From: Gibbula magus
Lineage: Eukaryota; Mollusca; Gastropoda; Trochida; Trochidae
Assembly (NCBI GenBank): GCA_936450465.1
Contig: OW388289.1
Location: 79,100,593-79,164,592, forward strand
Length of the DNA stretch: 64,000 nucleotides
Direction of reading: 5' to 3'
A program made the translations under genes and the position numbers. Position 1 is the stretch's first letter. Each line of letters opens with the position of its first letter. Below are positions 39,394 to 62,096 of the stretch, in pieces. The notes beneath the pieces are model-generated. The model was not told the DNA's origin. It was given only the letters and a program-made list of their open reading frames with translations, and ran no database searches.

Positions 39394-41276
39394 AACTGAA
39401 CGCCAAAAGAAATGTTACACCTCTTTGAATTTGAATATCATAAAAAGTTATGTGTTTAGAATAATTCGCTTTGTTGTGCTGTAACACTCGATCAGTTTAT
39501 TTTTTTGTGCTAAAATAGCAGACCTGTAACCTTAATGGTAAATAAGTTATCGCCAGTTCTTCATGGGTGGGGTCAATTGACCTATTTCCGATCATGCAAT
39601 AATTGAAGGGAAAATTGTAAAAATAGTTGGAAAATTAATCAAACTGACTTTGTCTTCTTTGATAATGAATGCACATTCATAAACAAGGAAATTAGTTATG
39701 ATTTTGGATATAGTTATTCGTTATTTTGTCTGAATATGACGAAATATTGAGATTTTTTCTATTCTAAACACAACCATAAGATTTTAAGAAAACGTTTTTG
39801 TTAAAAATGTGCTTCGACTGTTTTAGGAAGCATTGGCACATGTTTACGGACTAGATTTGTTTCTAAATCTTTCTAAATAGTGAACTTCTTAAACATTTTG
39901 GTTTTCATCAGAAGGATCATGTCACTAAAACGTAGCCATAAAATGTTTACCACGCATGCAATACACGTGAAATCAGTTGGTAACGGGTATTCATTATTTC
40001 ACATCATAATTCGATAACAATGCCGAGATTAACAACTGAAGAGCGGGAAAGAACGATTGGAATGATGCAGACTGGGTCCACTGATGGAGAAGTCGCTGCC
40101 ACATTCGGATGTCATCGTCTCACCATTTTAGGCTGCGTGGACGTCTACAACAGACTGGATCGACCGAGCTAGAAGCGGCAGGCCGCCAGTGAAAACCCGA
40201 AATGAAGACCGGTACCCGCTTCAACTGCATCTCAGGAACCCCTTTCAAGCCGCCCCATCGACAGCTTCTACTGCACTTGGACACCAAATCAGTCCCCAGA
40301 CGGTGAGAAGAAAGCTCCAACAACATGGACTGAGGTCATACCGGCCGATGCAAGCAATGCTGTTGTCGCGCCGACATCGACAAAACAGGGTTGCTTGGGC
40401 CAGAAATGTTCGACGTTGGCAGAATCAAAACTGGCAGAGAGTGTTATTTTCCGAAGAAAGTCGGTTCCAGATGCACGTAACAGACGGGAGAAGGAGGGTC
40501 TACCATGGCCGGGGTGAGAGGGAGGCACGCTGCTGCGTACAGGAAGTTATCCCTTTCGGTGAAGGCAGCGTCATGGTCTGAGGTGAGATACGCGACAACG
40601 CAACCACCGACGTCATTGTCATTGACGGCAATCTGACGGCGCAGAGTTACATTGACTGGGTCCTACATCCAGAGGTTATCCCATTCTTATAAGGCCATCC
40701 ACACACTTTTTCAACAGGACAATGCTCGCCCTCATGTAGCCAGAGTGACGTTACAGTACCTCAACGTCAACAACGTCCACGTTTTGCCGTGTCCTGCCAG
40801 ATCGCCCGATATGAATCCCATCGAGCACCTCTGGGATTACATCGATGGAAGGATCCGTCAACGTCGACACCAACCACACACACACGTCAACTTATTGCTG
40901 CATTGATGGCTGAATGGAGGCAGATACCACCTGCTTTCATCAGACGACTGACGTTTTCTGTGAGACGAAGAGTTAAGGCATGTTTGAATGCCAACGGCGG
41001 ACATACCAGATACTGATCACATACAATTTGTCAATAAAAAATAATGATTATTCTATGATTTTGTTGTTTTTGGTGCATGATCGGAAATAGGACAATTGAC
41101 CCTACCCATGAAGAACTGGCATACGTATTTACCATTAAAGTTACAGGTCTGCTATTTTAGCACCAAACACTTAACTAATGGAGTGTTACAATACAACAAA
41201 GCGAATTCCTCTGAACACGTAACTTTTTATGATATTCAAATTCAAAGAGGTATAACATTTCTTTTGGCGTTCAGTT
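39394..41276 (+). mobile_element. Tc1-like transposon, complete with long inverted repeats
   Basis: Termini are AACTGAACGCCAAAAGAAAT and its complement ending GGCGTTCAGTT, with TA at both sides (39392-39393 and 41277-41278). The inverted repeats run inward for about 220 bases (GGTAAATAAGTTATCGCCAG pairs with CTGGCATACGTATTTACC, and CCGATCATGCA pairs with TGCATGATCGG). 1,883 bp is a normal length for this group. Copy A has the sequence without it near 15190, so it is a post-duplication insertion. Confidence 0.9.
40021..41016 (+). pseudogene. Tc1-like DD34E transposase, inactivated
   Basis: Starts MPRLTTEERERTIGMMQTGS, a paired-like helix-turn-helix region, and continues in shifted frames. Recognisable parts are VRRKLQQHGLRSYRPM, NWQRVLFSEESRF (first catalytic Asp replaced: LFSDES is usual, here LFSEES), FQQDNARPHVARV (second Asp) and PARSPDMNPIEHLWD (Glu, 34 residues later). 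It is broken by frameshifts near 40130-40190 and 40860-40900, and by stops including a TGA where VMVWG is expected (near 40578). The element cannot mobilise itself. It sits centrally between the element's inverted repeats. Confidence 0.9.
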
Positions 41277-43641: not shown

Positions 43642-43804
43642 ACATACCATTAATATTGAATTATGAATTCATAACATGTATTTTAGTTTAGTGATCTGTC
43701 TTTCTTTACCATCTCACCTATTATGTATTTAAAGAATATACATGATTTAAACTTATTCAAGATGAATCTGGTTTGGTAAACAAGCCATTTATAAATATAC
43801 TTAC

Positions 43805-44096
43805 ACCCGCCAGTGGAATCAGAGGTAGGACTGCACAACGTCTGACCAACTTTCGCTTCGGTTGCCTCATGATTGTGTGCTGATGGTTGTTTAGAGATGA
43901 TGTAATTCACTGTAGAAACTGTGGAACCACAATCAGATTTCTGACATTTCCAAGACACCCAGCCCTCTGTTCTCCTTTTGTTGACTCTATAATTATATCC
44001 TCCCATACATAAGTATTTGCCACCATGAGAAGTAGAAAGAAAGTAGTGCTGCAGTTGTGCATTTGCCATGATGGAAGTGATGTTTGAGATACTCAT
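43805..44096 (-). CDS. FLYWCH zinc-finger exon (MULE-derived)
   Basis: Begins at an ATG and stays open for 97 codons to a perfect donor (GGCGGGT then GTAAGT). Residues 21-80 form a FLYWCH-type domain: GGKYLCMGGYNYRVNKRR, WVSWKCQKSDCGSTV and AHNHEA. Zinc ligands are C51, C56, H74 and H76. In these transposons the FLYWCH domain binds DNA ahead of the MULE transposase. Here the transposase core is gone and only its tail survives at 43224-43641, and the donor phase (1) does not match that tail's frame. The intact domain and splice site leave room for a domesticated DNA-binding gene, but a decaying element is the simpler reading. Confidence 0.6.
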
Positions 44097-46276
44097 GTCA
44101 CTGCCTTATATATTGATATATGATTGGATTACATGTAACTAATTAAATTGAGTGAAATCAATATATGATTGAATTAACTAATTAAACTGAGTGAATACAT
44201 TGAGAATTGGTGAACACATCTGGAATAGGTGACTAATAGGTGAACTCCACACTCTAATAGGTGAACATATCTCAATCCCTCCGCACCTGAGTTCAATTTT
44301 CACTGAAATCCAGAGTTTAATCCATTAAAACAACATCACAAAAACAACATGGCACATCAAAGGAGTTTTAACATTGACCCCTACTGTCGACAATTCAGAA
44401 AGACACCGTATGGATAAACGTAATTGTGTATTTAATTAACACCCCTCGTTATGCTTGAATGAATGCTTTATTATTCTAGTCAGTAGATTGAATATTTCAA
44501 GAACATGATTGGAAACGAGTGTATATTTAAAGTGATGCAGTAGCAGAAAACGGAGCCCACGTCAATGGGGCAAAGCTACAGTTATTACACTAAAACTAAC
44601 ACAATGTCAATTTTGTATTCCGAAAAATACACATACAATTTGCTATCGAAAAATTATGTAGAACTTACTAATGTCAATGAACTTCAAGTAGAGAAAGACG
44701 TTTTGAGAAGACAAGACAAACAAAGCAGACAAAGTGATAAAAAATATGTAGTGTAGGGAGGAAATGTACATGTGTCCTTTCATACACCAATTAACTTTCT
44801 TAAAAATCATATATTGCTGCAACTACAACTTAACAACATATGTGACATAAATGAAATTTCAAAACCATATTTATTTTAGAACTGCAATATATTTCCTAAA
44901 TTATTTACATATGGGCTAAATACTGACGAACGTGTTACATGTTATCAATAAGTTTTGAAAACATGTAAGCAACTAACTGGAAAATGAAATAAATTTGCAA
45001 CAGTTAACAAAATAAACACGCTGTGCTGAAAATGAAGTAACTTTTTTAAAACTAAGCTTAAAGTGTCAGCATTTTTTGCACACGGAATGTGGAGCATTCA
45101 CTTATAAGTTGCATACGTTAGATATGAAGCACCTATAGTTTTTACAACATTGATGAAAGCTATTAATTTAAATTTCTGCCATTACGTTTTTCATGTTGGC
45201 TTGCTCATTACATGTCTTCAGTATCATAAATTTATGTACATGAACTTTTACTATTACTTGTTCACAAATCAAAGTACACTTATATTCACACTTTCATGAA
45301 GTTTAATAATAATAAAGTTTTGTGTTTGATTGATTTAAATTATAAAGCATTCTTAAAATGAAATTTCCAATTGTTATACCTGAGAGACGGATTCTTGATT
45401 TCCAAGACATTTTATCAAACACCTAATGTTCTGATATCATTGAACTGACCTCACCATAAACGTTAAACATTCCACATGAAGGAAGCTTAACTGGTCAAAT
45501 CTGAAGAAGAATCGTTTCTATGCAAATATCTTTCAAGTAAACAGACACGCCGCTATACATTTTGAGTTTAAGAGTTACAGCTTGTTTCGTACATGAAATG
45601 GGTAAAGAGCTAAAAATATGACACTTTTATATGAATACAACCTGCAATTGTTTATATCAACATAATACACTCTTCAAGAATATAACATTAAGATTATGTA
45701 CATGTCATACATTATTAAAATGAAAATCCAACCCAGAATTAGAAAATAAGTAATGACTGTCTCAAATCATGTTAATTACTACTGAGGCTGTTTCGGAATA
45801 TACATTCTGGGACTAGTTATACCCCGTTACGACGAAGGTTTTAGTGAGGCACGCTCACTTTTTTGCTTGTTTATCTTCTGCAAATAAATACATTGGTATA
45901 CTTTTATGATACATTATGAATTGTGATTGTATGAACACACTTTTCTGATGTTAATAAGACGTCATAATTTTGATTAAAATACGAAACTAACATAGCGTAT
46001 CTAGCCGTAAATTTTGATAAATATTGACTCATATGTACACCAAACGATTTCGTTCATAATGTACGTGCATATGTGGTAGCCGCATATTTCATTTATGATA
46101 TCATATAATATTTTATGTATTTTAATCACATGTAATAAAGTTGCACACATGCATATTAGCATGTGTCTATTATCAATGTCTATAGTATTTTAAGGTGTTC
46201 AATTGCGTTTTATATAGCAGCCATGTCAATTTCATGTGCCTGCATTTAGAGGGATAGTCTATTTCATTGGTAGGGG
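44097..46276. other. No gene seen; right end of copy B at 45811
   Basis: 44690-45811 matches 15770-16890. Between 44100 and 44300 there is a local run of repeated TAGGTGAAC / GGTGAACAC words. Nothing coding. Confidence 0.45.
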
Positions 46277-58020: not shown

Positions 58021-59301
58021 AGTTAGCCGTATACGTTACTATAACGTGTGCATGCTGTTTGGTTTCAGTAAAAGCTATGTTGCATAAGTTTAAAATCAAA
58101 TATCTTCATTAATTCTCCGTAAACATTCTCTTTGTATGAATATGATCATACGTTACACATCTACAAACTATCCTTGAGAGCCTTTTTAATATGGGAATTT
58201 ATTGCACGTTTGTAAAATTTGTATTCCACATTTGAAATAAATGCGAATTGTACATATAAACAATTTCACAGATCACCCTTCACATTTCACATGTTGAGCC
58301 TGCTACACATGTTTGACACAAACAAAATCCTGCGTAATCTTAAAATGGTATAATTTCACACGTTTCATTCCATTTTCCTTTCATATCTCTATCCTGGTTT
58401 CAGTTTAAGATGTATGTCGGTTTCTGTACAACGGTGTCAGTCAAATGTGTTGCCGTTAACTCAGGAATACATATATACACGTGACACACTAATCTTCTTA
58501 CATATCACTTTACAGATTAGATCAGGTGTAATTGTTAATAGAGGAATACATTTATTTCTCAAATTACAAAACTATTGGTTGCAATCGTGAATTACACACA
58601 TATGATAAATAAGATTATATTTGAAAAATAATAATCGATTCTTCTGGGGGTTCTATGCACGTTTCTGTTGAATCATTAATATCCATAGAGATAGTTTAGT
58701 ACATATTATCACTGCCACATGTGTATGACCAATTTAATACACTGTTGTTTTACTTTTGACGTTACAGGGCTGTAAATATTATAGTTAACACATCACATAG
58801 TTAATGATAAATTGCATCACGCTCATGAACACACAAACAGTTCATTCTTTTGAAAAACATTTAAAAACATATTAAATTATAATCCAGTCACAAAATAACT
58901 TTTGTACTCAATAAATCTACTTAATAGTTTCTAATAAGAACATTTCACTTGAAAATGACGCGTGAAGCAAAGGAAACCCCGAATAGCAACCATTTCAAAG
59001 GTTTAATTCTTAACTTTAATGTAATTAAGTAATGAAAAATAACAAAGGTTTAAAGGTTAAAACTGTTTATAAGCACACACAATCAAGGAAGCTAATATGA
59101 TATAAATGAGTATAGCTGAAGATAACCACCGACATTAAGAAATTAACGATATAGTGACGTTGCTGAACTAATTGTAGGTGGTTTCTCATATCTAACCAAA
59201 ATCCCCTCATATGGGAAATGATTGGAAATGAACATCAATCGAGATTTCATTTTCGAAAGTATTTTCCATTTTGGAGTTAAGATTCCCCGTCTTTGATCAT
59301 A
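58021..59301. other. Intergenic sequence upstream of the cytokine candidate
   Basis: No repeat or coding exon delimited. It would hold the upstream regulatory region of the gene starting near 59330. Confidence 0.45.
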
Positions 59302-59330
59302 TATAAGTTAAATGGATAATAGCAGTACCA
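59302..59330 (+). promoter_or_regulatory. TATA box and initiator of the helical-cytokine candidate
   Basis: TATAAG lies at 59302-59307. An initiator-like CCATTCT is placed so that its A falls at 59330, 28 bases downstream, which is the normal TATA-to-start spacing. The first exon then ends at 59379 in a near-perfect donor (AAAAG then GTAAGT). Upstream there are two partial kappa-B-like sites on the reverse strand (GGGGATTTTG near 59200 and GGGGAATC near 59285). Each misses two consensus positions and I would not rely on them. The start point is inferred from spacing, not from transcript data. Confidence 0.6.
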
Positions 59331-59607
59331 TTCTTCAAGGACGCAACGACAGCAGATTCATCGTTACTTTTGTGAAAAGGTAAGTTGAATTATTCACTAT
59401 GACAATAATAACATGAGTACATATTTTACAATTTTAAAATTTAATCACTTTTATAGAACTTAAATTATACTATATATAAATTAATAAAATAATTCATTTG
59501 TTCTTTAAGACTTATATCATGTTGAAGCACTGCAACTTACAAATAAAAAGTAGTATAGTATACCATTCATGTTGTTTTAAATCTTGTTCCAGGAGCTAAA
59601 CTACGCT

Positions 59608-61313
59608 ATGATGAACAAAGTACAATTTGGCGTTTTCATTTCCAATCTGGTTATACTCGTTCATACAACGCCAATTTCTATGTCCCTAAATGATCCATGT
59701 GGTGGGACAAGCGTTGCCATAACTACGGAAGTGTCACCACAAGAGCCAATTGCTGACAGAAATACGAGCATTGAAGACGTCGCTAACTCAGCTTTGGCAT
59801 CTGCTAAAGAAGCCAGAAGTCTACGAAAAAAATACCACAACAATGACTCAAATGTAGGGATCATAGGTCTCAGTTTGAAATGGTTATAAATGAATAATCG
59901 TTATTTCCTTTTAAACCTCACCATTCATAAATATGATATCAATTCATGTGCAATTTAGAGATTCTTAAAGGGCATAATCTTGATGGTAAGGTCATTTATA
60001 CATGTATGTCCAATGTTATAATTTGTGTTACTTAATTGAGAATTATCAACTTTAACAGAAAATAACCAGTTTAAGGTCAATCAGTTCATTATAACGAAAA
60101 TACAACCATTCAAAGTCGTGGCCATGATCGAAAACCGGACAATGGACCTTGACTTGTTGCAGCCATTAAGTCAAACGTAATTTTGGAAACTTTAATAAAG
60201 TAAATAGGAAGGCAGATGTGCTTCTATAGCGTTTGATAAGTCTAATAACGAGTACACACGTGAGATAGAGCAATAATTGTCGGCTACTACACATTGAAAT
60301 ATGATGTATTAAGCATCTGGGGGTGAATATAAAAGTCGAGTAAGAAGATATAACCTAACCCTGGACCTTTCGCAATATGGTGTATATTAGAACCCAATAA
60401 AATATCATGCAAAACTGATCATGCATCTAGCATCATTTAGTTAATGAAATGAGTGATGGTATTTAAGCAACTATATTCAAATGTCAGATTAACAATTGAA
60501 ATATGTATGTATATGTATATATTCCAGCCAAGGATTGCCAATTCTCTTGCTTCTTTCCTGAACACAACTCATCTCCCGAACATGCCCTATGCTAGATCAA
60601 ACACTATTAGCAATGTGAGTGAAGGTTTTCTCATATCTCCAATTTATTCAATCAGCAATGTCTTTCATTAGTTTTACATAACCTATAACCAAATGTAAAT
60701 GTCCAATTTTATGAGGATAATTATGTTTTCATGATTATACATGTTCATTTAACACACTTTTTAAACATAATTTTACAGGCTTGCAGATGAGCCTTGGTAC
60801 AAACTGGCAACAATATCGTAGTTAGTACAATGAATCTCAAATCAACGGGTAGACTTTCTGAACTATTTATATGCATTTATGATACTGTTCTTGAACATGA
60901 GCGAACTGAATAGCGCAGTAAACCACGTTAATCAACTTGATTTATTTCCAATTTTGCAGATAAGCCAAGCTTTGCAAAATGACTTCAATGACGTTGCTAG
61001 AATTGCTGTGTACATGGAGAATGTTCTACAACATGAAAACAGTAGCAGCGTTAACGGATACAGTCAAGAGATGTCTTTATTCCTTTCAACATTGAAAAAC
61101 ACTCTCTGTAAAATAAAAATTGCAGCAGATTCACATGGCGAGGTTCTAAATAATTCGATTGGTAACAACACTATTCCCGAGGATTGCCAACAGATCACTT
61201 CCCTCGCTGAGAGATATTGTCGTGACTATATAGTGTTTCGGGATTCAAAAGAATATTTGGCCGATATGGCATCCGAATACGCAACGTACATTCAAAACCA
61301 AGAATGGTATTAA
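59608..61313 (+). CDS. Secreted four-helix protein, candidate IL-6/CNTF-like long-chain helical cytokine (spliced)
   Basis: I place a non-coding exon 1 at about 59330-59379 and coding exons at 59608-59853, 60528-60614 and 60960-61313. Acceptors are TTGTTCCAG, TATTCCAG and TTTTGCAG; donors are AAT/GTAGGG and AAT/GTGAGT. Both coding introns are phase 0. The product is 228 residues. Residues 1-24 form a signal peptide (hydrophobic core VQFGVFISNLVILV). Amphipathic helices are predicted at about 52-77 (A), 114-136 (B), 146-169 (C) and 190-224 (D). Exon 3 (83-111), with LPNMP, would be the A-B loop. Cysteines are at 31, 161, 187 and 198; N-glycosylation sequons are at 52, 94, 111, 138, 175 and 180. 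Helix D (RDYIVFRDSKEYLADMASEY) has the D-aromatic, hydrophobic pair, basic-acidic, aromatic-Leu spacing I associate with CNTF/CLCF1-type cytokines. Known: class I helical cytokine genes typically use phase-0 introns and encode about 200-230 residues. Inferred: a secreted ligand of a gp130/Domeless-like receptor acting through JAK/STAT. That the gene is real is likely; the family call is moderate. An unrelated helical secreted protein is the main alternative. Confidence 0.72.
59854..60527 (+). other. Intron 2 of the cytokine candidate, with a decayed MITE copy
   Basis: Phase-0 intron between coding exons. At about 60100-60440 it carries a degraded relative of the TTAA MITE found at 34059-34530 and 37362-37859. 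It shares ATCGAAAACCGGACAATG and the GTCAAACGTAATTTTGGAA block, in the same order as the 34-kb copy. No terminal repeats survive. Confidence 0.5.
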
Positions 61314-62090
61314 AAAACTGGATTAGTTGTCACATATTCAAATGACGATTATGGCGATATTTTGAGCATTTCGAGCAACAAGAATACCATCACAGATAAC
61401 GTTAACTGATCAGTTACCTTGCAGAAAGATAAGGTCAAGACTATACAGTTTGTGCTTATCCTACTGTCAGGATCATTGGTATACTGTATTGACATAAGGT
61501 AGAACTGGTTTTAACCTATTTAGAAAATAACATTGTTATTTGGAAAATATTTTGAGAACTCATTGCAATGTTTATGTTGTATCTGACTATTCCTTCAAAC
61601 GCGTACTACATGTAAGTGGGGTTTTTTTTATAATAAGTTCTGTTTTGGGGTTATTCCTTCTTTGAAATGGTTGTTGACCATTTACGTTAACATTCAGGAA
61701 ACCTCCATTGCTCCATTGCTTCCTTAACTGTAGCAAGATTAAACAAACAAAAAGAAAACGGCTACGTTGTATTTTGAGAAGGTCTTACGTTTACAAAAGG
61801 TTAATGTTTTATTCTACAGACTTTCATGACTTACGCAAGGATAAGAGAACTATATGCTCAACTGATAACAGAAACAACTTATAATATTATTCTGTTATAT
61901 CATAATATATATATATAATCAGAATGCCTTTTTGAAAAATAATTGGTGTCACTGTACAAGTTAAAATGCCAGCTGTGTCTCTCAACACATCAAATCTTTT
62001 GTGACAGAAGCAGATAATGCAATTGTATTGGAATATTAAATCTGTCTCGTATTTAGGGTATTTGTTCTCTTCATTTTCTTTTTTACATAC

Positions 62091-62096
62091 AATAAA
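62091..62096 (+). terminator. Poly(A) signal candidate for the cytokine gene
   Basis: This is a canonical AATAAA in AT-rich sequence, giving a 3' UTR of roughly 0.8 kb after the stop at 61311-61313. It is the first canonical hexamer I noticed downstream of the stop. Variant signals nearer the stop (an ATTAAA near 61736) cannot be excluded. Confidence 0.4.

Follow-up and report, generated by a model that had tools for sequence, protein, structure and literature searches.

We analysed a 64,000-nucleotide stretch of contig OW388289.1 of the trochid gastropod Gibbula magus (the "window"), which contains a gene that an earlier reading of its letters, here called the original prediction, had put forward as a helical cytokine of the IL-6/CNTF type. 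Coordinates of this "window gene" are given as window positions. The gene has paralogues elsewhere in the genome, and the evidence described below makes it most likely that together they form a new family of secreted, probably helical proteins that act as cytokine-like ligands. For membership in the IL-6/CNTF group, the sequence comparisons are suggestive.

The window gene lies on the forward strand. Its promoter block (59299-59379), read directly from the sequence, contains a TATA-like ATATATAAG at 59299 and an initiator-like CCATTCT at 59328, and runs through a non-coding first exon that ends with AAAAG at 59379 and is followed directly by GTAAGT (donor 59379|59380). Intron 1 stops at 59592, with the acceptor CAG at 59590-59592. 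The first coding exon (59593-59853) opens with a 15-base leader; its coding part, from the start ATG at 59608 to 59853, specifies 82 amino acids that include a signal-peptide-like start and predicted helix A. The second coding exon (60528-60614) is short, carrying 29 amino acids assigned to the A-B loop, and is bounded by phase-0 introns on both sides. The third (60960-61313) specifies the remaining 117 amino acids, with predicted helices B, C and D, and the stop codon. A 3' untranslated region (61314-62096), read from the sequence and with a predicted end, extends to the poly(A) signal AATAAA at 62091-62096. Every junction has GT...AG, and the TATA box and initiator, non-coding exon, three coding exons, splice sites and phase-0 coding introns of the original prediction are all present letter for letter.

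The spliced product is 228 amino acids long and has four cysteines (31, 161, 187 and 198), seven N-x-S/T sites and a net charge of -7. The earlier description of a 228-residue product with four cysteines and several sequons was thus exact. The N terminus is hydrophobic and resembles the signal peptide that had been proposed. Cytokines of the IL-6/CNTF class are secreted proteins of about 160-230 residues.

A paralogue, P2 (G000:C1:79207036-79208206, minus strand), lies on the same chromosome about 45 kb downstream of the window gene. The two proteins share 42 of 81, 17 of 28 and 77 of 114 aligned residues in the first, second and third coding exons respectively, and P2 also keeps the separate loop exon after helix A that the original prediction had described. 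BLASTN between the two genes returned three separate blocks that correspond to the three coding exons and short flanks. Upstream, P2 and the window gene align over the whole block between TATA box and donor, initiator and non-coding exon included, with a local score of 42, where the best of 100 shuffles scored 34. Because all three coding exons and the TATA-to-donor block recur in P2, the gene is more than a chance arrangement. That there might be no gene, and that a chance run of open frames and splice-like sites has been mistaken for one, is next to inconceivable given that exons, promoter block and cysteines are conserved between paralogues, although the junctions are backed by this conservation and not by transcript reads. 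On the evidence of conservation, on which its splice junctions also rest, the gene is real within the limits given in the original prediction. Substitution rates between the window gene and P2 (dN 0.233, dS 0.669, 223 aligned codons) indicate that the pair is under purifying selection.

Two of the four cysteines, C187 and C198 (window 61218-61253), lie 11 positions from each other, close to where predicted helix D begins. Of nine members compared, the window gene and P2 have both as a pair.

A tandemly expanded family in Gibbula magus

The genome was searched with the window product, which recovered its own exons, P2 and more weakly related copies on C15 and C13, and then with the members C15c, C15b and C15g, which extended the set. 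If each match to the third coding exon is taken to be one gene, the family has at least 19 copies: two on C1, one on C13, 15 in an array on C15 and one at 55.24 Mb on C15. The array spans 280 kb (4,407,519 to 4,687,833), and all 15 of its copies are on the plus strand. Thirteen of the 19 copies were modelled, namely the window gene, P2, C15a to C15f, C15g (by eye), L036, L038, L040 and L041; three more (L037, L039 and the C13 copy) were read in part, and three are known as search matches alone. The window gene, P2, C15a to C15g and four more array members have the three coding exons, but for C15b to C15f no exon carrying the start codon could be located. In the models of L036, L038, L040 and L041 the script put the donor that ends the first coding exon two codons early.

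Young copies in the array differ by few substitutions, and their dN/dS values range from 0.83 to 2.30 in all six pairs compared; exons of unequal length were excluded from this comparison, and three of the six pairs rest on 261 bases. These ratios suggest that the young tandem copies (L036, L038, L040 and L041) may be under relaxed or diversifying selection. Between C15c and the C13 copy the ratio for the third coding exon is 0.31. The tandem array and the high dN/dS of young pairs would fit a fast-evolving family with a role in signalling or immunity.

Some copies differ in their first coding exon or its surroundings. L014 (G000:C13:69772679-69774018) is almost identical to C15c except around the acceptor that precedes the first coding exon; it is possibly a broken or re-started duplicate. 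In the distant copy L037 (G000:C15:55236620-55238094, minus strand) several tandem Ser/Thr-rich units (TGSQPTDQTTSQSS-like) separate the PC motif from helix A in the first coding exon, and mucin-like repeats of this type occur with fewer units in the four modelled array copies.

Conserved residues, predicted helices and intron positions

The alignment comprised 11 of the 13 modelled members, with L036 and L041 omitted as close copies of L040. Only six positions are invariant in all 11: P30 and C31 in the first coding exon, L93 in the loop exon, and C161 (in predicted helix C), R199 and D206 (both in predicted helix D) in the third. The same six were already the sole invariants when six, eight and nine members were aligned. 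Since C31 and C161 are unchanged in 11 of 11 members, one cysteine pair is universal, and because the equivalents of these two residues are the only cysteines in C15a, a C31-C161 disulphide is the natural reading. Net charge ranges over the members from -15 to +10.

Mean hydrophobicity of eight members shows maxima of helical periodicity at positions 55-72 (helix A, a weak window with a score of 0.33), 110-127 (B, 0.35), 146-163 (C, 0.39), and 185-202 and 203-220 (a long helix D, 0.51 and 0.38). The first of these windows lies in the first coding exon and the others in the third, and all of the scores exceed the single-window 95% null of 0.32.

In class I cytokine genes the intron pattern is phase 1 in the signal region, phase 0 after helix A and phase 0 after the A-B loop. 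The coding introns of the snail genes follow predicted helix A and the loop, and the phase-0 pair occurs in nine of nine members modelled, with the phase imposed by script for the second exon of C15a to C15f and read freely for the window gene, P2 and C15g. Further upstream, five of the nine members (C15b, c, d, e and f) have an acceptor in phase 1 within the signal region; in the other four it precedes the ATG used by 2 to 15 bases. The phase-1 acceptor is weak evidence by itself, because an excess of phase-1 introns near signal-peptide cleavage sites is reported to be general (PMC1626468). Teleost IL-4/13, another class I cytokine, is described as having only phase-0 introns (PMC5440397).

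Comparison with cytokines and other helical proteins

Family profiles starting near P30-C31 were compared by hhalign with target sequences mostly not taken from database records; the long alignments of the eight-member profile were obtained with a permissive realignment setting. The eight-member profile scored 20.9 against the joint family of CNTF, CLCF1 and CT-1 (PF01110, PF06875; P 0.025, 173 columns), 18.0 against growth hormone (GH; P 0.055, 150 columns), 18.0 against CNTF (P 0.057) and 16.1 against LIF (P 0.11). When columns were shuffled (24 shuffles, 21 targets), the top z scores were 3.02 for GH, 2.53 for LIF, 2.43 for CNTF and 2.18 for a decoy, apolipophorin III. Dependence on the order of the segments was measured by permuting five blocks of the profile 60 times. 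The true score was reached by none of the permutations for CNTF, one for the joint family, five for GH and ten for GHx2, and by 25 for CLCF1, 27 for LIF and all 60 for OSM, EPO and IFN.

With 11 members the joint CNTF family ranked first of 29 overlapping targets, with a score of 24.5 and an uncorrected P of 0.0062, against 17.5 and 15.4 for its reversed controls. This score was reached by one of 80 block permutations and by none of 80 within-block shuffles; the corresponding counts for IL-10 were 23 and nine of 80. Positions 83-141 of the profile align with CNTF 67-121, from helix B to helix C, and the gene of CNTF likewise has a phase-0 intron after helix A. Taken together, the repeated but uncorrected preference for one branch of long-chain class I cytokines is suggestive. 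CNTF itself is known to lack a signal peptide and is not known to have a pair joining an N-terminal cysteine to helix C.

Other cytokines resemble the family in part. In the eight-member alignment, and under the permissive setting only, the snail C31 and C161 align with C18 and C131 of LIF, a likeness to be set beside the LIF values given above; OSM never rose above its reversed controls. The permissive 150-column alignment with human GH, made blind to introns, maps the snail introns to GH 33|34 and 66|67 with low column confidence there, 2 and 5 residues from the introns of GH at 31|32 and 71|72. GH differs in having one intron more and different disulphides, and its P value and permutation count set it further apart.

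Vetigastropods have fast-evolving, duplicated helical sperm proteins, and the host is a trochid, so a gamete protein of the sperm lysin, sp18 or TMAP kind has to be considered; of these, lysin alone was compared by sequence. We think this identity quite improbable. Scores against an abalone lysin sequence, likewise not taken from a database record, were 10.6 with eight members and 9.2 with 11, with reversed controls at 9.6 to 12.1, and no lysin was among the three PDB rows returned for the six- and nine-member profiles. Lysin is not known to contain cysteine and is strongly basic, whereas all 11 aligned members of the snail family keep the cysteine pair and the charge of the window product is -7.

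Much the same holds for a class II cytokine of the interferon or IL-10/IL-22 type, an assignment to which we give little credence. One of nine members matches Pfam IL22 at E 0.15, and type I interferons also have an N-terminal cysteine bonded to helix C. An oyster protein, CgIFNLP, is reported as an interferon-like cytokine (PMC8218723), a likeness of description only. In the profile comparisons, however, IFNA2, IL10 and IL22 fell under their reversed controls with eight members; with 11, IFNA2 and IL10 were at or below theirs, and IL22 scored 10.6 against 9.0 and 10.7.

Candidate ligands and their significance

The best explanation of these results, which we put at about an even chance, is that the window gene, as one of the 19 or more paralogues, has the mode of action of a long-chain helical cytokine. 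The product would be secreted, probably N-glycosylated and stapled by a disulphide. After removal of the signal peptide it would fold into a four-helix bundle made up of helix A, the loop encoded by its own exon, helices B and C and a long helix D, with the universal C31-C161 pair tying the N-terminal tail to helix C. Such a protein may serve as a soluble ligand for a receptor on haemocytes or tissues, plausibly of the gp130/Domeless type and signalling through JAK/STAT. The Unpaired proteins of Drosophila offer a parallel in role, as invertebrate ligands of the gp130-like receptor Domeless (PMC13203501).

A stronger form of this explanation would make the family the lophotrochozoan representatives of the long-chain class I cytokines, sharing ancestry with IL-6, CNTF and GH and supplying ligands to a molluscan gp130/Domeless-JAK-STAT module. 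We rate homology as unlikely, and slightly more so since both the full-length alignments and the placing of the introns depend on a permissive setting and an enriched CNTF profile weakened the order test.

Several results weigh against the cytokine reading. A single-sequence search of 5.8 billion proteins gave 155 candidates, none of them at E 10, and a six-member query of the same database gave 2615, none at E 1; because the collection includes nr, UniRef and other eukaryote sources, the lack of relatives is informative within the sensitivity of a word-based search. An hmmscan of nine of nine members against Pfam found no IL-6-family model up to E 10, and neither the single sequence nor the six- and nine-member profiles found a PDB cytokine. 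The search for orthologues that had been proposed earlier turned up paralogues within the genome, while none of the matches in Pfam, PDB sequences or the protein database was credible as a relative.

The profile evidence has its own counterweights. Column confidence is low over large parts of the long permissive alignments, and default settings shortened them to 48 columns for LIF and 50 to 66 for CNTF-type profiles. Enriching the CNTF side, with eight snail members, scarcely raised the scores (from 20.9 to 21.3 for the joint family, P 0.022, and from 18.0 to 18.5 for CNTF, P 0.055; CLCF1 P 0.13), and permutations reaching the score rose from one to 11 of 60 for the joint family and from none to five for CNTF, with 17 for CLCF1. 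The P of 0.0062 obtained with 11 members does not survive correction for 29 targets. In that comparison GHx2 was reached by 13 block permutations and one within-block shuffle of 80, and CLCF1 by seven and one; P was 0.24 to 0.57 for OSM, IL-6, G-CSF, IL-11 and EPO and 0.78 for LIF, whose score of 9.4 lay under its reversed controls and whose match to the snail cysteines was lost. The assignment to IL-6/CNTF by the original prediction thus stands in so far as a CNTF profile is the best of 29 in the kind of profile check it had proposed, and falls short in the absence of a Pfam or PDB match, in the uncorrected P and in the weaker order test with the enriched side.

Amphipathic stretches occur at the positions of all four predicted helices, but only the D window with a score of 0.51 is above the profile-wide 95% null of 0.48. 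A structure model of the third coding exon, made from that exon alone and without an alignment, is helical (H3-25, H36-57, H74-93 and H97-113), with a mean pLDDT of 57.3, which is low confidence, and its structure matches are generic bundles. The model neither backs nor refutes an up-up-down-down topology.

The genome was also searched for signalling partners. A STAT is present, which counts for the cytokine reading: STAT_bind is above the cut-off in two neighbouring stretches on C9. The receptor domain PF09240 (IL6Ra-bind) reached at best E 0.21, below the cut-off, in a gene that reads like an RNA-binding one. A gp130 probe gave 25 matches (E up to 10), and in the 12 whose loci were read there was no WSxWS on the matched strand; loci with a readable frame appeared by eye to encode FN3 domains of titin, usherin and contactin type. 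The Domeless-like receptor sought on the suggestion of the original prediction was not found among these loci. The JAK-type models PF17887 and PF18377 were silent in the genome, as they were in all controls.

Fast tandem evolution also fits reproductive or defence proteins. The family might be a lineage-specific, secreted helical protein that is no cytokine but works in defence or recognition, in mucus, eggs or seminal fluid for instance, and whose helices and single universal cysteine pair came to look like those of cytokines by convergence. Several features favour this possibility: the large tandem array, the dN/dS near or above 1 of young copies, the stretch rich in Ser and Thr that one subfamily has in its first coding exon, and the lack of a credible relative in the databases queried. 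The order-dependent preference for the CNTF family (one of 80 block permutations), a loop exon and intron sites like those of class I cytokine genes, and purifying selection on the older pair speak against it, and on balance we consider it somewhat unlikely.

The cytokine reading bears on a gap in molluscan signalling. A 2026 survey places IL-6-family cytokines in vertebrates only while reporting receptor, JAK and STAT in molluscs, and it leaves room for other ligands (PMC13203501). A snail multigene family of cytokine-like proteins provides concrete, testable candidates for the missing molluscan ligand. If the homology is true, long-chain class I cytokines would be older than the split between protostomes and deuterostomes. 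If the likeness is purely convergent, the genes still constitute a secreted family, expanded in tandem, for which the databases queried gave no relative.

Elsewhere in the window, open frames of at least 110 residues were listed, and three of them besides the cytokine-like gene were searched in Pfam. Two are of transposon type: one at 40132-40578 on the plus strand with a Tc3-type transposase helix-turn-helix (PF01498, E 6.7e-13), and one at 43686-44105 on the minus strand with a FLYWCH zinc finger (PF04500, E 2.8e-7). In another part of the genome, a haemocyanin cluster (G000:C6:44959924-45007312) contains 16 beta-sandwich domains, all 16 above the cut-off, one of which matches molluscan haemocyanins in PDB, including KLH1. 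Two genes of eight functional units each would fit this cluster.

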